Below are positions 327 through 25,213 of a stretch of 64,000 nucleotides of DNA, one piece after another. The translations under genes were made by a program, and so were the position numbers. Within the stretch, counting starts at the first letter, position 1. The number at the start of each line of letters is the position of its first letter. Origin of the DNA: Psychroflexus torquis ATCC 700755 (GTDB taxonomy: Bacteria; Bacteroidota; Bacteroidia; Flavobacteriales; Flavobacteriaceae); assembly GCF_000153485.2 (NCBI RefSeq), contig NC_018721.1, positions 1,488,001 to 1,552,000 of the forward strand, given 5' to 3'. Under the pieces are notes generated by a model. The model did not search any database, was not told where the DNA came from, and saw only the letters and a list, made by a program, of their open reading frames with translations.

Positions 327-477
327 GCCAGCAGGTAACACCGTATAAAATTAATTGCTGGTTTTTGTTAATTTACGAATCCCGAAGCGTAGGGACTCAC
401 AGATTTTCTTGGTTAGTTTTTATTTACTAAATTATTCGCTTAAAACACGCAACTAACTTTATACAAACCCATTGCCT
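327..477 (+). repeat. attC-like imperfect palindrome between gene cassettes
   Basis: A long imperfect palindrome directly upstream of the DUF998 gene. The left core GTATAAAATTAATTGC (343-358) pairs with GCAACTAACTTTATAC (449-464), 14 of 16 positions. Both mismatches are A on the left against C on the right. Outer arms GCAGG (left) and CCTGC (right) also pair. The same architecture recurs at 19574, 20114, 20836 and 22840. Its left part could also act as a terminator, because CCAGCA...TGCTGG is followed by TTTTTG. Confidence 0.6.
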
Positions 478-14250: not shown

Positions 14251-14814
14251 TTACAACTGTGAATGTAGAAAATCAGCAGTTTCTTTCAATCCTCTATTTC
14301 TTAGTATATCCAAGACTTGGAACTCATCTAAATCTGGGTTTCTTCTGTTTAATACCAATTCCCTAAAAGCTTTGACTGCCTGTTCTGGATTTAAATCTAT
14401 AATATCAGTTAAAAAATCATCAGCTGTTTTTGCTGTTAATCCGAAAGAAGCTAAATAATCTTTTGGAAAGTGCTTTATGTTGTTTGTGACAATAACATTT
14501 GCGTTTGTCTTAATTGCAGCTGCAAGAACGTGCCTATCTTTTGGGTCTGGTAATTTCAAACTACTAATTAAACCTGAATAATTATTAACTAAAGCATCTG
14601 GAAAAGCGTCATTTGCTCTTTTTGCTCTTTTATTGGCTTCCTCTTCACTTACATCTTTTCTTGCCATTACATCTTTCCATTCATCAAAAATATGTTCGCT
14701 CCATTTTGGAGTAAACATATCATAATATGCAAACCAAAATAGTAAATCCCTAATCTCAATCGGATAAATTACATTGGTATCTAAAACGCATTTAAATCTT
14801 ACACTATGAATCAT
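14251..14814 (-). CDS. PIN-domain ribonuclease toxin
   Basis: A 187-residue PIN protein. Metal-binding acidic residues are Asp12 (VLDTNVIYP), Glu45, and Asp90/Asp93 (LPDPKDRHVLA), with TNN at 110-112. This is the PIN_3/VapC-like pattern of single-strand RNases. The start overlaps the end of the upstream HTH gene by 11 bases, which implies translational coupling as in toxin-antitoxin pairs. RNA target unknown. Confidence 0.8.
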   Translation of the reverse strand: MIHSVRFKCVLDTNVIYPIEIRDLLFWFAYYDMFTPKWSEHIFDEWKDVMARKDVSEEEANKRAKRANDAFPDALVNNYSGLISSLKLPDPKDRHVLAAAIKTNANVIVTNNIKHFPKDYLASFGLTAKTADDFLTDIIDLNPEQAVKAFRELVLNRRNPDLDEFQVLDILRNRGLKETADFLHSQL

Positions 14815-15259
14815 AAATTCCTAATTCTTCGTCCGACTTCATTATATCAATAATATTTTGTTTCTGAATTTTCTTCATTCTATTTTTATATCTCATAACA
14901 TCTTCTAACTTAACCCTTCTATGCTTACCAACTTTAGTATATTCTATTTGACCATCTTCAAGTAGCTTAACTAAATGAGGTCTTGAGCAACCAATGATTT
15001 CGGCAGCTTTTTGGGTTGTAACTTCGGTTGCAACAGGAACTAATGAAAATGGTTTTCCTTGACTCATTGCTTTTAATATTTCACCCAAGAATTTTAAAGC
15101 GCTTAAAGGAATTTTAATTCTCTCATGAGTTTCCTCAATCTCAATCTCTGGATTTTCTGACTTCAATTGTTCAATTACAGAAGCCAAAGCATCATAGGAT
15201 TCTATTGCTACCTTTTGCTCATCTTTCGAAGGCTTATTGAATTTTCTATAAGTTTCCAT
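14804..15259 (-). CDS. Excisionase-type HTH antitoxin of the PIN toxin
   Basis: A 151-residue protein. Residues about 78-125 form an excisionase/MerR-like winged helix (TTQKAAEIIGCSRPHLVKLL, then TKVGKHRRVKLEDV). A charged N-terminal part and a C-terminal tail (IMKSDEELGIYDS) could bind the toxin. As the first gene of the pair it probably neutralises the PIN protein and represses its own promoter. This two-gene arrangement is known from other bacteria. Confidence 0.72.
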   Translation of the reverse strand: METYRKFNKPSKDEQKVAIESYDALASVIEQLKSENPEIEIEETHERIKIPLSALKFLGEILKAMSQGKPFSLVPVATEVTTQKAAEIIGCSRPHLVKLLEDGQIEYTKVGKHRRVKLEDVMRYKNRMKKIQKQNIIDIMKSDEELGIYDS

Positions 15260-15350: not shown

Positions 15351-15975
15351 CAATAACTAAGCATATGGCTTGCCGATAGGCGAACACTTCGACAGGCAGG
15401 CTCAGTGGAGTACGCTATATGATTTGTTGACTGATCCGGGATTGCTGGTAAGGGGGAATTCGATGAGTTGGCAGGAACCTTACAAGAGGAGAAGGTTGTT
15501 TTTAGAGTGCTTTGCATCCCTTTTTATTCAGTTGCTTATCTAAATAAGGCACTTTTTAGAGAAATCATGCTTTTTTTGTGTGAGAATCTGCTGTTTTTTA
15601 TCATTTTCCTTCAGTTTAGGCACTAGTAAGTCAAGGCTCTTTTTAGAACCGTTTTTAATGTTTGTATTCCAGTTTATCCTTTATAATTTTTTTGTAATCC
15701 CTGGGCGGTCCACGACTGTCAAAAGTGAAAAGTGTGATTAAGGTCTTCTTTTTACAACTCGGATAACAGCGATGTAAGGACTTCTCTTGAGTGGCAAAGG
15801 TTATTATGTGTACCAAGTTTTTATCTCTTAATTGCAATTGTAATAGCGAATTTCTCTTTTTTCCAACTGCTGCTCAAAAACTCATAATGCCTTATTCGAG
15901 TAAAGCCTTTGGAAAGAATATGGAGTTGAAAACGCCGTATAAATTCTTTAGTGGAGAGTTATAGTGTGGTTTTTT
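15351..15975 (-). mobile_element. Partial IS91-like element: duplicated 3' end (copy 1)
   Basis: This segment repeats 17156-17751, the 3' end of the IS91-like element, from AATAACTAAGCATATGGCTT to AGTGTGGTTTTTT. It includes the end of the transposase frame (LRDKNLVHIITFATQEKSLH). It differs by point changes and by a roughly 26-base GC-rich insert (ACACTTCGACAGGCAGGCTC, about 15387-15418). The rest of the transposase is missing. Confidence 0.75.
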
Positions 15976-16214
15976 TAATAATCTTACAGCAATCATTACT
16001 CGGCGGACTACTAAGCAAATTTTGCATTTATTTTTACAACATCTCAACGAGGACATAACTTTAGGCTATCCGTTCTTAACGGTTAAATACCTTTAAATGA
16101 TTAAAAAAGTAGTTTTTTAAAGTCTATTTTAACTAATTTAGTTGATTAAGGCATGATTAATTTATGACTAAAAATAACGAAAGCAGCTAAAGTTCAGACT
16201 ATGTATCGCAAAGC

Positions 16215-16413
16215 TTTAAAAACACTAACGGTAAGCCTTGGAGCACCCCACACACTTTACGTCATAGTTTTTCAACACCCTTATGGAACGAGGAACAAGC
16301 TTAAGACATATTCTGGCTGCTTTAAGTCATAATAGCTTCAAAGCGACAGAAATTTATACTCGAGTTTTAGTGATGAATACAAAGCCCATTGGATATTATG
16401 TGTGAAAGTGTTA
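16215..16413 (+). pseudogene. Tyrosine recombinase, C-terminal remnant
   Basis: Two overlapping frames read PHTLRHSFSTPLMERGTSLR, then HILAALSHNSFKATEIYTRV. These are the HxLRH box and the catalytic-Tyr region of a tyrosine recombinase. The N-terminal part is absent and a frame change is needed inside TPLM. It lies directly upstream of the cassette that starts at 16490. Confidence 0.65.
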
Positions 16414-16489
16414 GATTAGATGAAAATAAAACAACGTCCTAAATAGATATATACCCTATAATGAAGATTTGAATGGGGTTTATACGGAT

Positions 16490-17157
16490 GTTACCACACA
16501 TTTGAGAAAAATCGTAATCATATTGATATTAGTGAGTTTGTTTTATAATTGTAAAACTGACAATACTAAAGTGGAACAGAAAAATGCGGAATTTTATTAT
16601 CCACGAATTACGAATTTTGAGAAAGACTCGACTCTGACAAAAATTTATTTGGATTCTATCAAAGATTATGGCGAACTGATTAAAATAGCGGATAGAATTG
16701 CTTGCAATGGAAAACTACCTGTTCTGAAATTTAGTTCTGACAAAAACGACTTCAATCTTTTAGTTTTTAAAATGTGTTCAGAATCGAATATTATAGCAGA
16801 TTATTCAGGGAAAAATGTAATCTCAATCGAAAATAATACAGTAATCATAAATGACCAAATTGAAAAGCCTTTCGATAGTTTAAAAACTGTTTTACGAAAT
16901 CATATCCTAAATCCCCAAAAGCAATCTGACTATTCTCAAAATATAAACAAAGCTTTAATTTTCTATTATCAAGATAGTCTATTTGGAAAAGAAGAAATCA
17001 AAAAACAACTTATAAAAATAACAACTGAATTTAACGAGCTGAATCGGAAAAACGGCAATAGCCTTCCATTGAAAATTAAGTTAAGTGATTATCCATACAT
17101 CCGAATTGAAATGCCGATACCACCACCACCGAATGAAAAATAAAAAACGTGTGGTAA
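16490..17157 (+). other. Gene cassette 1, bounded by complementary arms
   Basis: It starts with GTTACCACAC (16490-16499) and ends with GTGTGGTAA (17149-17157) followed by TAAC. The arms are complementary over nine bases. The base after the arm is A at the start and G in the reverse complement of the end, the same mismatch as in the other cassettes. It carries one gene. IS91-like 3' ends adjoin it on the right and lie upstream on the left. Confidence 0.6.
16502..17143 (+). CDS. Hypothetical lipoprotein in cassette 1
   Basis: About 214 residues. The frame opens at 16469, but the first 11 codons are cassette boundary sequence. TTG at 16502 gives MRKIVIILILVSLFYNC, a lipoprotein signal with lipobox Cys, so TTG is the likelier start. 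The mature part is Lys/Asn/Asp-rich with no recognised domain. The C-terminus ends in a PIPPPPNEK proline run. The neighbouring cassette gene at 21069 also ends in a proline run (SPPPPSF). Outer-membrane or periplasmic location is predicted; function unknown. Confidence 0.65.
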   Translation: MRKIVIILILVSLFYNCKTDNTKVEQKNAEFYYPRITNFEKDSTLTKIYLDSIKDYGELIKIADRIACNGKLPVLKFSSDKNDFNLLVFKMCSESNIIADYSGKNVISIENNTVIINDQIEKPFDSLKTVLRNHILNPQKQSDYSQNINKALIFYYQDSLFGKEEIKKQLIKITTEFNELNRKNGNSLPLKIKLSDYPYIRIEMPIPPPPNEK

Positions 17158-17443
17158 TAACTAAGCATATGGCTTGCCGATAGGCCAAAGCTATATGATT
17201 TGTTGACTGATCCGGGATTGCTGGTAAGGGGGAATTCGATGAGTTGGCAGGAACCTTACAAGAGGAGAAGGTTGTTTTTAGAGTGCTTTGCATCCCTTTT
17301 TATTCAGTTGCTTATCTAAATAAGGTACTTTTTAGTGAGATCATGCTTTTTTTGTGTTAGAATCTGCTGTTTTTTATCATTTTCCTTCAGTTTAGGCACT
17401 AGTAAGTCAAGGCTCTTTTTAGAACTGTTTTTTAATTTTTGTA

Positions 17444-18576
17444 TTATAGTTTATCCTTTATAATTTTTTTGTGATCCTTTGGCGGCCCGCGACTGTCAAA
17501 AGTAAAAAGTGTGATCAAGGTTTGCTTTTTACAACTTGGACAACAGCGATGTAAGGACTTCTCTTGAGTGGCAAAGGTTAATATGTGTGCCAAGTTTTTA
17601 TCTCTTAATTGCAATTGTAGTAGCGGCAACTTCTCTTTTTTCCAACTGCTGCTCAAAAACCCATAATGCCTTATTCGAGTAAAGCCTTTGGAAAGAATAT
17701 GGAGTTGAAAACGCCTTATAAACTCTTTAGTGGAGAGTGTTAGTGTGGTTTTTTGCCCACCTTTTCTATAGTCTTTTAAACTAAATGTAATCCTCCTTTT
17801 TTCTTTATCAATCGACAAGATACGGTGATTACTTATCGCTATTTTATGGGTGTACCTACCTAAATATTCAATCACATGTTCTGGTTTTCCAAAAGGAGAT
17901 TTGGCATACACCACCCACTCTTTTTTGAACAACTTATCATATAAAGATTGGGGTAATTGGGGAAGTGCTTTTCGTAATTTGGACACAAAACGACCTCTAA
18001 ATTTATCACTCATCGCCTCTACTGAAAATAGAAAATCATCTTTTGCTGTTCCTTTTTCCAGAATCCTGCCTCACAAACACCTCCCCCTGGAACAATACAG
18101 TGCAAATGCGGGTGCAATTGCAAATTCTGACCCCAAGTATGTAGCACGGCAATCATCCCTAGTTTTGCACCTAGATGTTTGGGGTTGTGTCCAAAGGCAG
18201 ATAGGGTTTCCCAAGCGCTATCAAATAAGATCTTATAAAGCACTTTGGGATAAGGTATTGCCACAGAATTGAGATGGTCTGGGAGTGTAAAAACAACATG
18301 AAAATAAGGCACAGGAAGGAGTTCTTGCGTTCTTGCAGCAACCCACTCATGCTGCTTATGCCCTTGGCAAGTAGGACAATGCCTATTGCGACAGGAATTG
18401 AATTGCAAATGGAGCTTCTTGCAATTCATACACCAATCTAAATGTCCACCAAGAGCTTTAGTGCGGCATTTTCTTATCGCATGCAAAGCTCTTTCATTCC
18501 AACTGGTATGGGCTATTTCTTGTAGATGATCTACCTCTAGATTCAATACATCTGCTACTCTATGTTTGGGTTGCAT
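17444..18576 (-). pseudogene. IS91-family transposase, frameshifted
   Basis: Frame 1 (18576-18019) has the N-terminal zinc-binding domain (CMNCKKL...CRNRHCPTCQGH) and the HUH region HPHLHCIVPGGG. Frame 2 (18013-17444) carries FRGRFVSKLRKALPQ, VIEYLGRYTHKIAISNHR and the Y-containing catalytic region. They join if the frame is changed near 18050: the alternative reading AKDDFLFSVEAMSDKF continues the family sequence. One indel therefore inactivates an otherwise complete transposase. Confidence 0.78.
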
Positions 18577-19488
18577 TAGTTTGTAAACAAGGTATCCAGG
18601 GGACTGAATTTAACTGAACTTCCAGAATTGGACACTTGCAAATACACAATGGTAGTTTCTATATGAGCGTGCCCCAAAAGCTCTTTTAAACACATAATAT
18701 TGAGCCCATCTTCAAGCAAATGGGTGGCGTAGGAATGTCTAAGAGTGTGGGCTGTGAACTTCTTTTGTGTGTTTACCTTAGGACGACATTCTTTAATAAC
18801 CCATTGGAGAGCTCTTGTAGTGATCGGTCCTGGCAGACAATCTGTGGTTTTCTGACTGTTGAAAACATGTTTTACAGGATTTTCTGTTTTAAAATATTTT
18901 TGTAAGCCTCTAATTAAATGAGCACTCAAAGGAACGTAGCGGTCTATTTTTCCTTTCTGTTTTTTTACAAATACCGTTTTACGCTCAAAGTCAATATCAG
19001 CCTGCAACAAATTACAAAGCTCGTAGCTACGCAATCCGCAGCCGTAAAGCATAGCTAACATCAATTGATGTTTTAGGTATTTAGGAGCCTTTAATAACTC
19101 GCGAACTTCCTTTTTGTTGAGCACAATGGGAAGATCATTCTGCCTTTTTATTTGCGGAAGCTGGATGCGCTTTTTATCCATTCCCATCACCTTGTAAGCA
19201 GATCGAAGACCATAGATGGTGTGTTTAAAAAAGCTTTCGGAAGGCGTGTTGTGTAGGTTCTGGCAGTGGAATAAGTAGTCGTTGATCTCTTCTTCACTAA
19301 GGTGGACAGGACTGCATTTATAGTAAATAGCCAAGTGAGCAAGGCAGCGCAAGTAATTGTTTAAGGTGCTTTTTGCTTTACCATTGATGGCAAAGCTTTT
19401 TTCTAAAGTAAGGGCAAGTTCTTTAAAGTCGGGAACTTGGTCTAAGGCCGTTTCTAAAATCGTTTTGACTTTTTTTTAAATACATCAT
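18576..19488 (-). pseudogene. Tyrosine recombinase associated with the IS91-like element
   Basis: The C-terminal catalytic domain is complete: Arg in CGLRSYELCNL, HTLRHSYATHLL, LLGHAHIETTIVYL. The open frame upstream of 19352 continues without a stop through ILETALDQVPDFKELALTLE to a run of eight A on the minus strand (19470-19477). An ATG in another frame (MMYLKKK) precedes that run. One more A would give a protein of about 303 residues, the normal length. As read, the gene lacks a proper start. It overlaps the transposase start, suggesting a joint operon. Confidence 0.6.
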
Positions 19489-19573
19489 TATAGGTTTTTT
19501 GTGAATCCATCAAGATAATGTATTTTTAGCTTGACTCTAGAAGCTTCCGAGGTACGAGGATTAGTTCAACACG

Positions 19574-19700
19574 GTGTATAATTAATTGCTTTGACCAGTG
19601 CTTATTTGGAAAATTCCTTCGGAATTTTCTCTAGTCCGTATTTGTTTATTAATTTAGTTGCTTAACCACGCAACTAACCATACACATCACGTTGTAAGTA
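19574..19700 (+). repeat. attC-like palindrome between cassettes (site 1)
   Basis: The left core GTGTATAATTAATTGC (19574-19589) pairs with GCAACTAACCATACAC (19670-19685). All three mismatches are A opposite C. The right side ends in CACGTTGTAAGTA, the first arm of the next cassette. Between the cores is a smaller hairpin, AAAATTCCTTCGGAATTTT. Confidence 0.65.
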
Positions 19701-20123
19701 ATTGGGGAAAATCCTCAAACTGAATAAATTTATAGTGGAATAATCTTAAATTTCTCTATTTTTAATTTCGAAAAAAATGAAAACTATGGAACACTCTTTC
19801 GCTAATTGGAATTTTATCAAAACGCAAAATTTACAAAGTTTGCGGAATTGAGCAACTTTCGGAATTAAGCAAGTTTGAGGAATTAAGCAAATTTTCAGGA
19901 TTGAGCTACGTCCGAAATTGAGCAAGTTTGCGGAATTTTTACTTATTTAAAAAATATCTAAATTTCGGGATTGAGCAAAAGAAGGAATTTAAAAGATTGC
20001 GGAATTTTCACTTTTTTGGAAAACAGAAACCAAACAAAAATTGCGGAATTAAACATAAGACGGAATTAAAAAAGTTAGAAAAATTAATGAAAATGTGATA
20101 ATAAATAAACAACTACTTACAAC
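19691..20123 (+). other. Cassette 2: non-coding cassette with GGAATTRAGCAA repeats
   Basis: It starts GTTGTAAGTA (19691-19700) and ends TACTTACAAC (20114-20123), perfectly complementary over 10 bases. No frame of useful length is present. Between about 19838 and 20075 the motif GGAATTRAGCAA (often preceded by GC or TC) and partial versions of it recur about nine times at irregular 15-40 base spacing, all on one strand. A structural RNA, a protein-binding array or an exhausted gene are possible. Confidence 0.55.
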
Positions 20124-20249
20124 ACCGTGCATAATTTATTGCTGTATTGTTTTTCTTGCGAAAATCCTCGGAATCGTCAAAGTCTGTGTATTTTAATTAA
20201 TTTTTTGCTAAATTTACGCAACAAATCATGCACAAACCCGTTGGCGTTA
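20114..20249 (+). repeat. attC-like palindrome between cassettes (site 2)
   Basis: The left core GTGCATAATTTATTGC (20127-20142) pairs with GCAACAAATCATGCAC (20218-20233), 14 of 16, both mismatches A opposite C. The left outer arm belongs to cassette 2 (TACTTACAAC) and the right outer arm to cassette 3 (GTTGGCGTTA). The outer arms therefore do not match each other but match the far ends of their own cassettes. Confidence 0.7.
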
Positions 20250-20277
20250 ATTAAAAAAAAGCGAACCATTTAATACA

Positions 20278-20370
20278 ATGATTTCAAAACTGAAAATTTC
20301 AGAAATTAGAGACAGATTGGAAACCATTACAGAGTATGGCAATCAAAGATTAAAGGAATCCTATTTCTAA
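20278..20370 (+). CDS. Short ORF of 30 codons at the head of cassette 3
   Basis: ATG at 20278 gives a 30-residue charged peptide (MISKLKISEIRDRLETITEY...) ending at TAA 20370, 63 bases before the membrane-protein gene. It could be a leader peptide or a fragment. No relative is recognised. Confidence 0.25.
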   Translation: MISKLKISEIRDRLETITEYGNQRLKESYF

Positions 20371-20433
20371 ATTGACTTTTTTCAGAAAGAACAGAATTGA
20401 AGTTTTGTAAACTTTTAGAAAAACCCGAATAAA

Positions 20434-20838
20434 ATGAAAAGACACATAGTGACTTTCTTAATTATAGCCCTGATAAAAAGTGGACTGCTTTTTTTGATAA
20501 TCCTTCTTGGCGAGTGGATTCCTTCGGCTTTTGGCATATTGAGATTTATTGTGTTTTTCATATTTATTTGGCTCATTGATTTAATAGTACTGAAAAAGAA
20601 ACTAATAGAATTCATAAATCCCAATTGGATTAAATATACGTTGTATCTATTTGGAACCTATTCGATGGTTATTTTTATTACTGGGCCAATGTTTCTGTTA
20701 TACAATTTGATTTTAAATATTCAACCTGATTCGGAAACCAAAACACCAACTGTTGCTATAATTGGTTTTCTTATTATTGGATTAATAATTTCTACAATTA
20801 ACTCAGTATTGATTTTGAATAGGGAGAAGAATAACTAA
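20434..20838 (+). CDS. Small four-helix membrane protein in cassette 3
   Basis: A 134-residue protein with hydrophobic segments at about 5-27, 31-52, 68-93 and 105-127, short charged loops and a Lys/Asn tail. No domain is recognised. The stop codon TAA (20836-20838) is itself part of the cassette's terminal arm TAACGCCAAC, which leaves no 3' untranslated spacer. This is typical of compact single-gene cassettes. Confidence 0.6.
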   Translation: MKRHIVTFLIIALIKSGLLFLIILLGEWIPSAFGILRFIVFFIFIWLIDLIVLKKKLIEFINPNWIKYTLYLFGTYSMVIFITGPMFLLYNLILNIQPDSETKTPTVAIIGFLIIGLIISTINSVLILNREKNN

Positions 20839-20973
20839 CGCCAACAAAAAATATAGTGCATTTGGCAGATAGTGCTAAAGATGAAGATGGTAGCAATAAA
20901 TAAACATAATAGTAAATTGAAAAACTGGAGCATTGAAATGCCAAACGCACCATACACAATTCCGTTGTATGCA
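20836..20973 (+). repeat. attC-like palindrome between cassettes (site 3)
   Basis: The left core GTGCATTTGGCA (20856-20867) pairs with TGCCAAACGCAC (20939-20950), 11 of 12, the mismatch again A opposite C. The left outer arm TAACGCCAAC closes cassette 3; the right outer arm GTTGTATGCA (20964-20973) opens cassette 4. The core sequence differs from sites 1 and 2, but the layout and spacing are the same. Confidence 0.65.
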
Positions 20974-21068
20974 ATGCAAAAAAATCAACGTTGTGAATTT
21001 GAACAGAGGTATTTTAATTAAAACGGAGTAAGCCGAAAACCGATTAAAGTAGGCATCAAAATAATATT

Positions 21069-21590
21069 ATGATTAAAATATTTTCATTTAGACCAATCGT
21101 ATTAATTGGATTATTATTAATTGTTGGCTGTTCAAATGTTGAAAAATCAAAATCTTCAATATCCGATAACAAAGATTCAGAATCCGTAAAGAACGAACTC
21201 GATACTGCATTTAAAAAAATGTGGAAGAATGTAACTCTAAAAAATGCAACTGAATATTTCAAAACTGATGTTTCCGACAATTTCTTTACTATAAATGCAG
21301 ATGGAATTGTTCAAAATAAGTCGGAATTACTCGCTGATACAAAACGACTTGAAATGCTTGAAATTTTGAGTTTTGAATTTTTCGACCAACAAATTAAAGT
21401 TTATGACAATGTTGGAATTATCAATGGAAGAATAAAAGCCTTTTCAGAGGGAACATATGTTGGCGAGATTTTTTATACAGCAATATTTGTAAAACAAAAA
21501 GACATTTGGAAATATGAAAACTGGCAAGGAACTTGGACAAAAGACTCACCACCACCACCATCTTTTATTTCGGAAAATGAATTAGAATAA
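21069..21590 (+). CDS. NTF2-like (DUF4440/SnoaL-type) lipoprotein in cassette 4
   Basis: A 173-residue protein with a lipoprotein signal (LIGLLLIVGC, Cys21). The mature domain reads DTAFKKMWKNVTLKNATEYF, then IVQNKSELLADTKR, then YVGEIFYTAIFVKQKDIWKY. This is the alternating helix/sheet pattern of DUF4440 NTF2-like proteins, which bind small ligands or act as cone-shaped enzymes. The C-terminus is DSPPPPSFISENELE. Cassette 4 runs from GTTGTATGCA (20964) to TGCATACAAC (21611-21620). Confidence 0.7.
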   Translation: MIKIFSFRPIVLIGLLLIVGCSNVEKSKSSISDNKDSESVKNELDTAFKKMWKNVTLKNATEYFKTDVSDNFFTINADGIVQNKSELLADTKRLEMLEILSFEFFDQQIKVYDNVGIINGRIKAFSEGTYVGEIFYTAIFVKQKDIWKYENWQGTWTKDSPPPPSFISENELE

Positions 21591-21610
21591 ATTAACGGAA
21601 TGAAAAGCAC

Positions 21611-21650
21611 TGCATACAACAAAGTACTGTGGCTAAAAACAAGTAAAAAC
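21611..21650 (+). repeat. Left half of an attC-like palindrome, cut by IS110
   Basis: TGCATACAAC (21611-21620) closes cassette 4 and is followed by AAAGTACTGTGGC. The matching right half does not follow; the IS110 transposase gene begins at 21651 instead. A separate complete palindrome lies beyond the element at 22840. Confidence 0.45.
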
Positions 21651-22622
21651 TCATTTATTTCTCACTAAAGTACTTTTATATTCTTTATCATATATCAACC
21701 CTGATTTAGCAATAGCAAAGGCCTGTTTTAACAGCTTATTGCACACCGCAATAAGTGCTAATTTCTTACTCTTTCCTTTGGCCACTATTCGCTCGTAAAG
21801 ATCTCTGCAAGCCTTGTTATATTTACAAGCATTAAAACTGCACATAAATAATAAATTACGAAGTTTTTGATTGCCAATTTTACTTATTCGAGGGCGTCCT
21901 TTTACACTACTACCACTTTGCCTAATCACCGGTGTTAGACCAGCATAACTGCATAGTTCTGCTGCACTTGTAAACCGATCAAAACCACCTGTTAAAACCA
22001 CTAACATAATTGATGTTTTAGGCCCAATGCCTGGAATAGTTTTTAAACGAGTTAATAGGTCTTGATGTGATTGTTTTACCAAAACCAACAACTTATCTTC
22101 TAAGGTTTTCATCTCTTTTGTAAGCTGTTTTAAACTCCGTTTTAAGGACCTTACAACTGCTTTACTTGGCTCTCCCAAAACAGCTTCTCCATGTAATTTG
22201 TTTTTTAACATGGTGCTCTGCTTTGTATATACAGAGAGAGCTCTGGTGATTTGAAGGCATTCCATCTCATCTTTAGTGTTACCCTTCCACAGTTTTAAAT
22301 CTACCTTCTGAGCATACTCACAAATAAGTTTTGAATCACTCTTATCTGTCTTGATTTTTGACAACTTCATCTGGATAAAACGTTTTACAGCTAATGGGTT
22401 TTCTACAGATACTTTTATACCAGATTCAAGTAAAAAATAAGCCAGTTGGTAGTGGTAATAACCGGTGGCTTCCATCACACAGTGACTCTGTTGATTTAAG
22501 AGTTTTACAAACTTTTTAAAGCCAGAAGAATTGTTTTTAAACTGATGATAATTACCATTGGAATCCGTGATGTCGAAAACTAAATGGCTAATGTCAATTC
22601 CAAAATATTTAATATCTTTAAT
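21651..22622 (-). CDS. IS110-family transposase (DEDD)
   Basis: About 323 residues from the ATG at 22622, where MIKDIKYFGIDIS is the usual N-terminus; a further in-frame ATG lies at 22652. The N-terminal RuvC-like DEDD domain starts FGIDIS and continues with VMEATGYYHYQLAY and KTDKSDSKLICEYA. The C-terminal IS116/IS110/IS902 domain has IPGIGPKTSIMLV and the serine-containing SYAGLTPVIRQSGSS. The enzyme recombines donor and target under guidance of an element-encoded RNA. The ORF appears intact, while three relatives in this window survive only as C-terminal remnants. Confidence 0.88.
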   Translation of the reverse strand: MKDIKYFGIDISHLVFDITDSNGNYHQFKNNSSGFKKFVKLLNQQSHCVMEATGYYHYQLAYFLLESGIKVSVENPLAVKRFIQMKLSKIKTDKSDSKLICEYAQKVDLKLWKGNTKDEMECLQITRALSVYTKQSTMLKNKLHGEAVLGEPSKAVVRSLKRSLKQLTKEMKTLEDKLLVLVKQSHQDLLTRLKTIPGIGPKTSIMLVVLTGGFDRFTSAAELCSYAGLTPVIRQSGSSVKGRPRISKIGNQKLRNLLFMCSFNACKYNKACRDLYERIVAKGKSKKLALIAVCNKLLKQAFAIAKSGLIYDKEYKSTLVRNK

Positions 22623-22800
22623 CATAACAAAATGTTTTTTTTGAAAGTACATACTACGCGAGTTTCAACGACTTAAAATCGAGGTCTAAAGCCTCATACA
22701 ACTGTTCGAAATCTGTGTAGAAAAGAGAGGGGATTTTCAATGTTGACGAAATCATAGTCTCTGCGTATATAATAACCTTATTCCTCTCTTTGGTGCTTTC
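22623..22800 (-). other. IS110 upstream non-coding end: candidate guide-RNA region, with a 33-codon ORF
   Basis: About 180 bases upstream of the IS110 transposase have no long gene. Members of the IS110 group are known to transcribe a bridge RNA from this end. A small minus-strand ORF at 22755-22654 (MISSTLKIPSLFYTDFEQLY...) lies inside. The segment GAGGAATAAGG...TATACGCAGAGAC (minus strand, about 22758-22789) recurs on the plus strand at 30838-30869. Neither the element boundary nor an RNA fold could be fixed by eye. Confidence 0.3.
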
Positions 22801-22839
22801 TGATTTATATCTAAATTTAATGAATTGTAAACTTAAGCC

Positions 22840-22946
22840 GTATATAATTTATTGCTTGCTTCTGGCTTACTTACGAAAGTCCTCGCGGACTTTCTTGGTC
22901 GGTAATTATTTACTAAATTAGTTCCTTAAAACACGCAACAAACCAT
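22840..22946 (+). repeat. attC-like palindrome (site 4)
   Basis: The left core ATAATTTATTGC (22844-22855) pairs with GCAACAAACCAT (22935-22946), 9 of 12, with all three mismatches A opposite C. An inner hairpin GAAAGTCC...GGACTTTC lies between. It is the same family as the palindromes at 343, 19574 and 20127. Flanking cassette arms are not identifiable because IS110 and the group II intron lie on either side. Confidence 0.55.
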
Positions 22947-23154
22947 AGTGTGCCAAGAATCAACCATGGCAATAAATAAAATGGTTGAATGCTGTGTATA
23001 GTGTCTGGTCGGAAATACAGCAAAATTAAAAATGTTTCTTTTTGCGATTTTCATCTTAAATTTTAATCGCCTGATGCTAATGCATCACCTCATAAAATAA
23101 AAAACAAATCTCATCAAAAATAATTCATTTTATAAAATCTGTCTATTTCCAACC

Positions 23155-23990
23155 AGTCACTAGTTAAGATGATGGTAAGTCCATCAGAGTCGTTGTATAG
23201 GCGATGGCTCTAAACCCCCTAAAGGTGTTGTTGTAAAGAGCTCCGAAGCCTCGGGGGTGCTGAGCGTTTAGGAGAATCCAATCCACGAGGTTGGCAAGGT
23301 GTGAGTAATGGAGTTGAACCCTTCGTCAAGCTCAGGATAAACTTCAGTAAACCACTGACGAGGTGTCCCCGAAAAAACGGGGCAGGCTGAGAAGTAGGAA
23401 CCTCCAGTCAAAAGCTACAGGGCGGAGCGTTAAGAAAATGTCCTGAGGACATTTTTAGTGAACGAGCGATCAGGCGCGAGGGGCGATACGGAGTGAAAGG
23501 TAATGTTAGCAACAACATTAATTACAGAGATAACCTATTTATTTTCTGTAAGGCTGGCGTCATTCAGGTGGCAAGAACTTTACTTGGGCTTAATTATGGA
23601 ACTTGGGAATCTGCTTATCGATGATATACTTGTGTAAGGCTACCGCATTAGGATTCGCTACAAGACAAAGGGAAATATTCAATCGAAACAATCGAGAGAT
23701 AGTCCCGATAGCAATCGGAAGAAGTTATAAGCAGAGGCGGACTCATTCGTAGTAGTGTTGATCCCGAAACTTCGGGAGTGTAATGAAACTGGAGCAAAGG
23801 GATGGGCTAATTTTAATTTACAATTTGCCAACTTGAAAAAGGATGAGCTTATATTTGTATACTAAATTAGAAGAGCCCCCGACAAAAACGGGGTAGGCTG
23901 TGTGAGGGGAGACTTTCAAAGCCTGTCCCGTGTTTTCGGGACACGATTCTGTGAGAGGCTTGGGGTGAAATTCCCCTTGTCTACTCGACT
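23155..23990 (+). ncRNA. Group II intron, ORF-less and damaged
   Basis: The sequence follows the ribozyme core of a bacterial group II intron. Domain I blocks include GATGGTAAGTCCATC, GCTGAGCGTTTAGGAG and GGTTGGCAAGGTGTGAG. ACTCATTCGTAGTAGTG and TGAAACTGGAGCAAAGGGAT stand where domain IV normally begins. GTGTGAGGGGAGACTTTC, TTCTGTGAGAGGCTTGGGG and CCCCTTGTCTACTCGAC form the 3' end. No reverse transcriptase frame is present. Domain V is split by two GC-rich hairpins (about 23876-23898 and 23921-23946), so splicing is unlikely. The 5' boundary is approximate. It ends nine bases before the arm of cassette 5. Confidence 0.72.
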
Positions 23991-24010
23991 ACAACAACGT
24001 TGGTGGGCAT

Positions 24011-24559
24011 ATGAAACGACACGTATATGACAGGGAAAAAAATATGATAATATCACAAGAAGATAAAGATGAGAGTGTAAAAATTATTCAATTAATTAAG
24101 AAGGTTGATAATATTGACGAAGTTTATGTTAACTCAGAAAGTGAAATAATATCTCAAAAACAACCTTTTTTAATTTCATTACTGTTGGGTTATAGATTTG
24201 ACTTAAAAGAAAATGAATTAGAAGAAATAATGAAAATTATTTTTATCATTTGGGAGTATTTTAAGAGCTTTGAACAAATTCTTAAAATTAAGGTCTCTGA
24301 AAAACAGTTTGAGAAAATTCAACAACGAAATATTAATATGCTTAAATATTTTGAGGGAGAAAATGGACAAAATTCACAATACAACCTTGTTGAATCTGAT
24401 TTAAGACATTTACATTCAAAAGCACTTTTGACTGGAATATTTTTTCAATTCAATCACAAAAAATCACTTGTTGAGATGAATAATGAAGAGAAAGGGATTA
24501 TACTAATTGGCATGAAAAGTTTAATAGAATGTTTTGATGAAATTAATGCAAAAAATTAG
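24011..24559 (+). CDS. Hypothetical protein in cassette 5
   Basis: Up to 182 residues from ATG 24011, which lies two bases past the cassette arm. ATG 24044 is an alternative start (MIISQEDKDESVKI). It is helical and rich in Lys, Glu and Ile, with no signal peptide and no recognised domain. The C-terminus has FNHKKSLVEMNNEEKGI. The DUF6155 gene follows after 14 bases in the same direction, and the two may be co-transcribed. Confidence 0.55.
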   Translation: MKRHVYDREKNMIISQEDKDESVKIIQLIKKVDNIDEVYVNSESEIISQKQPFLISLLLGYRFDLKENELEEIMKIIFIIWEYFKSFEQILKIKVSEKQFEKIQQRNINMLKYFEGENGQNSQYNLVESDLRHLHSKALLTGIFFQFNHKKSLVEMNNEEKGIILIGMKSLIECFDEINAKN

Positions 24560-24573
24560 AATAATATTATGGA

Positions 24574-25068
24574 TTGAGAAAAGTAAAATTAGAACTAAAT
24601 AAGCTTGAAAAAGAGACTTTGATAAAGCATATTTTAGAACTCTATAAGAAATTTAAACCCGTTAAAGAATATTTTGACTTTTATATCAATCCAAATGAAA
24701 GTAAAATATTGGAAGAATATAGAGAAAAAGTTCGAGAAGGATTTTATCCAAAACGTGGAGATAGATTAAGGTTATCAATTTAAAGAAAAGCAATTAATGA
24801 TTTTAAAAAACTGGGAACTTCAAAGGAAAGTATTGCTGATTTGTTATTGTATTATGTTGAGTGTGGTGTGGAATTAACCAATGAATTCGGAGATATTGAT
24901 GAAAATTTCTATACAAGCATTGAAAATGCCTATGGAACATCACTCGAATTAATGAGCAATGAAGGGATTTTAAGTAAATATAAAGACAGAACACGTGAAA
25001 TAGTAAATAAAACTGAGAATATAGGATGGGGATTTCACGACTATTTGTGGGATGTGTATTATGAATGA
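24574..25068 (+). pseudogene. DUF6155 family protein interrupted by one in-frame TAA
   Basis: The first part (TTG start at 24574, RKVKLELNKLEKETLIKHIL, then PVKEYFDFYINPNESKILEE) ends at TAA 24781-24783. The same frame continues at once with RKAINDFKKLGTSKESIADL and ends GWGFHDYLWDVYYE at 25068. Together the 165 codons cover the whole DUF6155 family pattern without loss. A single base change (for example AAA to TAA) explains the interruption. Function of the family is unknown. Confidence 0.7.
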
Positions 25069-25213
25069 AATACGCCCTACAACACTATTTATGTTTAATG
25101 CCGATTTATTGTAAAATTCAATAGTATAACCATTAATAAATCATTGCTAAACGAAAAGTTAGGGCCTTCGAAATCTGCCACCAATCGATTACCAAACCTT
25201 AGCAGACATCTGG

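Follow-up and report, generated by a model that had tools for sequence, protein, structure and literature searches.

A stretch of 64,000 bp from the chromosome of Psychroflexus torquis ATCC 700755 (NC_018721.1, positions 1,488,001 to 1,552,000; hereafter the window, within which coordinates are given) contains a chain of small units with complementary ends, separated by palindromic junctions. Comparison with related genomes makes it highly probable that these units belong to a cassette system of the integron type in Bacteroidota, driven by a tyrosine recombinase other than the integron integrase IntI. The window segment, judging by its sequence, is a decayed satellite array, composed of a 3' remnant of the recombinase gene, an attI site, five cassettes and three elements that target the cassette sites. 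What the sequences show directly are the complementary arms, the palindromic sites, the attI-like heads, the borders of the cassettes, one shared attI followed by different cassettes, and head recombinases lacking the insert of IntI.

The integron-like reading had been put forward in an initial annotation of the window, and it is borne out by the pairing of arms within units, which lies far above that of reshuffled units, and by cassettes that switch exactly at the arm. In the first count (167 sites, giving 125 units formed only at 100-4000 bp), arm positions 4-10 matched at 7 of 7 bases in 61 units and at 5 or more in 93, with control means of 2.46 across the same site (n=167) and 2.42 for random pairs. 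Site finding was then improved: 243 nhmmer matches were reduced to 224 sites in nine genomes (our own and eight relatives) by dropping those that overlapped or did not span model positions 12-114, and unit length was limited to 100-2500 bp. The resulting 156 units match at 7 of 7 positions in 87 cases and at 5 or more in 136, with a mean of 5.99, compared with a mean of 2.62 and a maximum of 3.04 in 2000 within-genome reshuffles. Pairing is a property of the unit, not of the junction. GTTR was found at 157 of the 167 sites and AAC at 154; position 5 is T or C in 92 of the 136 well-paired units and position 6 is C or T in 60, so that RRY is not kept.

The arm is longer than first described, about 14 bp, with a fixed mismatch at position 11. 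This position has A at the start and C at the end in 117 of the 136 units, and likewise in all five units of the window, and a Watson-Crick pair in none of the 136, and pairing resumes at positions 12-14 (122, 126 and 117 units, respectively). The A/C combination is a further wobble on the bottom strand. All five pairs of complementary ends originally proposed for the window are present, with 10 of 10 arm matches in units 19691-20123, 20240-20845 and 20964-21620 and 8 of 10 in unit 23999-25083. In the unit 16490/17157 the arms also pair, but its own cassette sequence ends at 17155, and the closing AAC is supplied by an IS91-like element (AATAACTAAGC at 17156). A strict model-free arm rule (GTTR, at least 9 of 10 arm bases, the fixed position 11 and 2 of 3 further bases) recovered three exact canonical pairs and the 16490 unit on the plus strand of the 64-kb window and zero pairs on the minus strand, while in ten mononucleotide shuffles, where just the canonical pairs were counted, chance produced 0-3 of them (mean 0.9). 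By itself the window is only moderately above chance and hence suggestive; the wider multi-genome test decides. A scan of 15 loci by arms only detected 12 pairs in one stretch of relative G012 (11 non-overlapping), 15 in one contig of G023 and 12 in a Rufibacter locus, in each case on a single strand, and 0-8 pairs in the remaining loci, with zero in a Persicobacter plasmid and a Pontibacter locus. Five shuffles each of the G012, G023 and Rufibacter stretches yielded zero arm pairs.

The junctions form a conserved folded site. A covariance model built from 15 clean own-genome copies was applied to the whole 4.32 Mb chromosome, where 150 of 4602 candidates received a score and 68 places reached E<=1, and it revealed sites in 37 of 60 genomes (our own and 59 relatives). 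Across the family, sites were present in 161 of 199 genomes, our own included, and in 160 of 198 genera. Among 142 sites (141 distinct) from the genomes of seven relatives, whose alignment was fitted to the model and thus biased towards its pairing, the 16-pair stem has 98.6% standard pairs on the bottom strand, 464 stem cells changed on both sides compared with 112.5 expected from shuffles, and a covariation score of 0.597 versus 0.127; sliding the partners by 1-3 columns lowers pairing to 28-42%. The non-Watson-Crick stem cells, read on the top strand, are A.C in 289 cases, G.T in 8 and other combinations in 23, and at two stem positions A.C is present in 119 and in 140 of the 142 sites. Since A.C on the top strand is a wobble below, this excess over G.T identifies the bottom strand as the one kept foldable. 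The spacers between arm and stem measure 3 bases on one side (140 of 142) and 6 on the other (116 of 142, otherwise 5 or 7), and, being unequal, they leave one side with additional unpaired bases. The 136 units with at least five arm matches, used also for the cassette-pair and open reading frame (ORF) counts below, were folded with the site circularised: the bottom strand is lower in every unit under DNA parameters (136 of 136; mean -29.6 kcal/mol, against -25.5 for the top strand) and in 135 of 136 under RNA parameters. We infer that the folded bottom strand would be the recombination substrate. The Rufibacter junctions are only 53 bases long, with layout and position-11 rule unchanged, and a DNA pattern for the site had no match in viral contigs.

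An ORF of at least 100 amino acids (aa) occurs in 95 of the 136 cassettes, 90 of the 95 being read in array direction, and 29 cassettes have no ORF of 60 aa. Homologous cassettes form 33 pairs, 32 of them within one genome and some sharing members. Of the 19 pairs with common arms, 18 agree at 85% identity or more in the downstream site and one does so in the upstream site, compared with a background site identity of 65.7% (sd 8.3). A cassette is a gene together with the site downstream of it, as in the definition of integrons. Exact change at the arms was seen in two comparisons. When the array head of relative G020 was used as query, 15 of 40 genus matches begin exactly at base 1207, the GTT of the first cassette, and two long matches of the G020 recombinase, in G012 and G009, end at base 1210. 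Moreover, the genome of P. torquis (G000) and that of a second species, G022, are colinear over 7.4 kb at 92.7-96.2% identity, covering the recombinase and about 6 kb upstream of it; at the attI 113 of 115 bases are identical up to GTT and 35 of 100 beyond, and the first cassettes differ, each having its own matching end. Separately, two cassettes of G020 (L125:6955 and L125:9268) have bodies 90% identical and arms that differ at both ends in step, through either natural covariation or joint replacement of both ends.

The recombinase gene expected to accompany such units was found both intact and decayed. The intact copy (G000:C1:3774742-3775878) lies on the same chromosome as the window and encodes a 379-aa tyrosine recombinase, and decayed copies of its 3' end were located in the genome by tblastn, one of them at 16209-16439 in the window, alignable with 13 other remnants and the intact gene. 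The alignment of the 14 remnants with the intact gene holds across an attI-like stretch, which closes with GGATGTT or a slight variant of it, and breaks off immediately afterwards. Homologues of 30-50% identity stand upstream of at least one site, in array direction, in G003, G010, G016, G020, G021, G029, G031, G032, G035 and G042; the G020 array, headed by the recombinase, spans about C1:1966000-2042800. At 8 of 11 heads, our own included, the start arm at the attI pairs with the end arm of the first site at 9 or 10 of 10 positions. Three array recombinases (L187:4356-6095, L181:7900-9666 and L191:8977-10755) are 580-593 aa long, with a much longer N-terminal part. The tyrosine recombinase encoded in the window at 18576-19475 was considered as the enzyme of the system and dropped, being part of the IS91-like element and lying on a long tree branch.

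By the integrase criteria tested, the array recombinase is outside the IntI class. The insert of about 40 residues between the KDR and LRHSF motifs occurs in 0 of 17 recombinases (11 from array heads and six homologues without a shown array) and in 19 of 19 IntI proteins, the latter chosen by the IntI family model from 20 phylum loci, one of which had no usable ORF. Against TIGR02249 (cut-off 265) our own recombinase scores 187.7 bits and that of the IS91-like element 144.3; against the XerA model it scores 194, with a cut-off of 220. A 100/100 branch of a 64-protein tree separates the 19 IntI from 21 rows labelled as array recombinases; 24 unlabelled rows were left uncounted, and the branching tells neither where the root lies nor which group is nearer to Xer. 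The best match of the predicted structure (mean pLDDT 79.3, pTM 0.52) is XerA 5hxy, with the integron integrase 2a3v (VchIntIA) at rank 4, and an added N-terminal alpha/beta part is predicted with moderate confidence. An alternative is that the array is a true IntI integron, with IntI encoded elsewhere and the array recombinases as bystanders. The logic of site and attI does match that of IntI integrons, and 84 of 296 phylum genomes have IntI over the cut-off. However, the complete genome of P. torquis has zero TIGR02249 matches over the cut-off, and of 85 IntI-matching genomes none belongs to its family and one to its class. The array recombinases stand at heads beside attI-like sites, and the 14 decayed 3' ends in our own genome precede such sites. 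We regard a true IntI integron as very unlikely.

The features of the window are as follows; sites 1 and 2 and the solo site belong to the 15-site set from which the covariance model was built and are marked accordingly.

15352..16208, plus strand: satellite array head, IS91-like left-end sequence and further sequence fused to the downstream part, with the AATAACTAAGC end at 15352
16209..16439, plus strand: 3' end of the array recombinase, decayed and frameshifted (about residues 299-379), by tblastn with the intact 379-aa recombinase
16446..16491, plus strand: attI-like site GATATATACCC...GGATG/TT, kept in 15 aligned heads that diverge straight after GTT
16490..17155, plus strand: cassette 1, lipoprotein-like ORF ending at 17143, start arm GTTACCACAC, end arm GTGTGGT
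17156..19567, genes on the minus strand: IS91-like element at the AAC of the cassette 1 site, with zinc-finger/Y2 transposase in two ORFs and its own tyrosine recombinase (Pfam)
19568..19690, plus strand (match on the minus strand by the bottom-strand model): recombination site 1, palindrome, covariance model 19568-19693, 121.2 bits (building set)
19691..20123, plus strand: cassette 2, no ORF of 60 aa, GGAATT-rich repeats, arms GTTGTAAGTA and TACTTACAAC
20121..20239, plus strand: recombination site 2, covariance model 20121-20242, 103.6 bits (building set)
20240..20845, plus strand: cassette 3, 134-aa membrane-protein-like ORF at 20434-20838, arms GTTGGCGTTA and TAACGCCAAC
20843..20963, plus strand: recombination site 3, divergent type, by direct reading, no covariance model match
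20964..21620, plus strand: cassette 4, 173-aa DUF4440 lipoprotein-like ORF at 21069-21590, arms GTTGTATGCA and TGCATACAAC
21621..22836, minus strand: IS110-family element directly after the AAC of site 4, transposase at 21651-22652 (Pfam)
22837..22947, plus strand: recombination site 4, main part, covariance model 22843-22947, 99.6 bits
22948..23989, plus strand: group II intron without an ORF of 60 aa, inside site 4 (GCAACAAACCATA/intron/TACAACAACGTTG), Rfam RF01999 at 23171-23299, 79.5 bits, boundaries inferred from copies in other sites
23990..23998, plus strand: recombination site 4, last bases
23999..25083, plus strand: cassette 5, 182-aa ORF at 24011-24559, then a broken DUF6155 gene, arms matching at 8 of 10
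337..473, plus strand: further solo recombination site, covariance model, 115.6 bits (building set)

Cassette 1 begins at the GTT at 16490, inside the end of the attI-like site, and its ORF has no Pfam match. The junctions had been described as palindromes of about 130 bases, which holds for the two clean ones at 19568-19690 and 20121-20239. The other two are not of this kind: the site at 20843-20963 is divergent, and the segment 21618-23998 is not a clean palindrome but a single site split by the IS110-family element and the group II intron. These two insertions in one junction, together with the attI-like site, the wobble signature and a recombinase that is not IntI, go beyond the initial annotation.

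In our own genome at least four different end arms, and in G036 two, are followed immediately past the AAC by the IS110-family element; four copies of the group II intron begin at a single stem position. The pattern is like that of IS1111-attC elements and group IIC-attC introns, in that an IS110-family element and an intron each occupy a fixed point of the cassette site; the difference is that the site is another one and that the window intron has no ORF of 60 aa. The left end of the IS91-like element follows cassette end arms, other copies adjoining other end arms. Elements of this kind, with their own tyrosine recombinase and inserted at the AAC of a cassette site, were observed at 17156-19567 and at L044:2734-5146.

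The segment 15414-15975, upstream of the recombinase remnant, shares 94.5% identity with the left-hand portion of the IS91-like element that begins at 17156. Because 10 of the 14 remnants have one common upstream junction (by eye) and IS91-like left-end sequence lies upstream of many satellite heads, this element probably spread the heads. One could go further and suppose that the units themselves are moved by it, through rolling-circle transposition of the HUH type, with arms and sites as its terminal structures, the more so as it adjoins sites and encodes a tyrosine recombinase. This is highly improbable, since the ends of the element are constant whereas the arms are unit-specific, and the element interrupts a site instead of bounding a unit. 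In addition, arrays with matching arms follow the recombinase in G012 and Rufibacter, in stretches that were not searched for the IS91-like element. The palindromes also fold well with RNA parameters, as they would if the hairpins acted as RNA or terminators and arm pairing were a by-product of transcript folding; this is hardly credible, as the wobbles favour the strand opposite to most genes, and different cassettes at one attI and sites travelling with genes are left unexplained. Finally, single-strand hairpins are substrates of Y1/HUH transposases (IS200/IS605 or REP type), but the probability that such an enzyme moves the units is close to negligible, because within-unit end complementarity, the attI and the tyrosine recombinases at heads would remain unaccounted for (no Y1 search was made).

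A scan of one genome per species for homologues of the recombinase gave 80 named loci, of which 71 were entered and, seven having too little 3' sequence, 64 could be tested. An exact arm pair 15-300 bp 3' of the recombinase stop was present in 11 of the 64, compared with 0.3 expected, and 10 of the 11 have A/C at position 11. These ten are from Bacteroidales, Rufibacter, Aquiflexum, Winogradskyella, Seonamhaeicola, a Flavobacteriaceae isolate, two metagenome-assembled genomes of Bacteroidota and one of Spirochaetota, and Pontibacter (there without further pairing). An arm-pair locus from Planctomycetaceae without the position-11 signature was taken as chance. On a plasmid of Chryseobacterium sp. 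SNU WT5 (L294:8013-17053) a recombinase gene is followed by three arm pairs, the control strand having two, and farther along the plasmid lie a gene annotated as IS110 transposase and a group II intron.

Cassettes of this kind apparently include one with a resistance gene of medical importance. On plasmid pWB8 of Sphingobacterium faecium (L320:6001-7208), tet(X2) has an exact start arm, an end arm and the position-11 wobble; a palindrome of about 120 bases comes next, then another GTTR start. The gene looks like a complete cassette of the Bacteroidota system. On Acinetobacter plasmids tet(X3) and tet(X5) (L293:5353 and L321:4170) have the same starting bases as tet(X2) and lie directly behind the attI-like stretch of a truncated related recombinase, and the contexts diverge exactly at GTT. 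The end arm was not found for tet(X3) and tet(X5).

Several observations weigh against a recombinase-driven cassette system. Fewer than five arm matches were counted in 32 of 125 units in the first count and in 20 of 156 in the second; these units probably reflect missed sites. Among the 14 cassette pairs with differing arms, the downstream site is at least 85% identical in just four and the upstream site in one; each member has matching ends, but members were selected for that. The heads of G010, G016 and G042 (3 of 11) showed no matching start arm in the stretch examined, and the nearest homologue faces away from the array in G027 and at one G032 locus. The exact arm pair is missing at the tested place in 53 of the 64 testable named homologues. 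By a hand tally that includes our own genome, recombinase and sites occur together in 31 genomes, the recombinase alone in 2, sites alone in 6 and neither in 21, a co-occurrence that is confounded by family and thus says little. The 6 of 37 site-bearing genomes without a recombinase at E<=1e-50 include G023, which has a clear array.

The recombinase-driven cassette system may work as follows. A cassette comprises one gene or none, followed by its palindromic site. Excision as a circle would bring the start arm to the end arm and complete a long hairpin on the bottom strand. The recombinase, whose gene lies just upstream and has the same orientation, would link the folded single strand at G/TT to the attI that follows this gene on the 3' side, and joining at the attI would cause arrays to grow from the recombinase end. 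The catalytic role of the head recombinase and this order of steps are what we infer from the sequences. The window array is a decayed satellite copy, probably spread by the IS91-like element, its sites serving as targets for the IS110-family element and the group II intron.

The Bacteroidota system works like an integron, yet judged by its integrase it falls outside the IntI class. With IntI integrons, such as the sedentary chromosomal one of Vibrio cholerae, it shares a recombinase gene with an adjacent attI and an array of mostly one-gene cassettes, GTT/AAC borders, a downstream folded site carried by the cassette, a bottom-strand bias, end boxes that pair in the circular cassette, and plasmid-borne versions. 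In contrast to IntI, its recombinase has no IntI insert, lies outside the IntI clade, possesses an extra N-terminal part and is read in array direction with the attI at its 3' end; the unit-specific arms of about 14 bp, the fixed position-11 wobble and the spacers of 3 and about 6 bases are further differences. The window resembles CALIN, arrays of attC sites without an integrase, in having sites and cassettes and no intact array recombinase, but differs in its recombinase remnant and attI-like site. XerA, XerC and XerD, which function in dimer resolution, and the 'integron-like' simple tyrosine recombinases share the core fold and catalytic residues with the Bacteroidota recombinases, whereas the latter head cassette arrays.

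Insert-less relatives are already known as proteins, since MSB 2021 (PMC8138268) reports incomplete conservation of the integron insertion within the 'integron-like' simple tyrosine recombinases. According to eLife 2020 (PMC7790495), cassette capture requires the I2 domain, which occurs in no other protein; the same paper adds that direct proof of I2 causing single-strand recombination is lacking. IntegronFinder, as outlined in part of a Sci Adv 2022 paper (PMC9668308), defines an integrase by Pfam PF00589 together with an IntI-specific domain, and a cassette system without this domain would thus be missed by design. Its authors mention, in a section of PMC9024848, one complete integron in Bacteroidetes proper, in Salinibacter. 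No paper on such a Bacteroidota system was among the matches listed in a search of open-licence PMC articles, without preprints and with tet(X) as a cassette outside the scope of the query. A cassette system lacking I2 makes the origin of single-strand recombination testable by comparison, and the contexts of tet(X2), tet(X3) and tet(X5) give it a bearing on resistance. We lean towards the view that single-strand cassette recombination arose a second time or predates IntI, and that integrons lacking I2, the domain credited with having made integrons possible, are spread throughout Bacteroidota and have already brought resistance genes like tet(X) into pathogens as ready-made cassettes. On the same view, fixed G-T wobbles and the unequal spacer would set strand choice, the extra N-terminal domain perhaps contributing.

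At 14251-15259, directly before the array head of the window, genes for a PIN-domain protein and a helix-turn-helix protein lie side by side and possibly represent a toxin-antitoxin pair.

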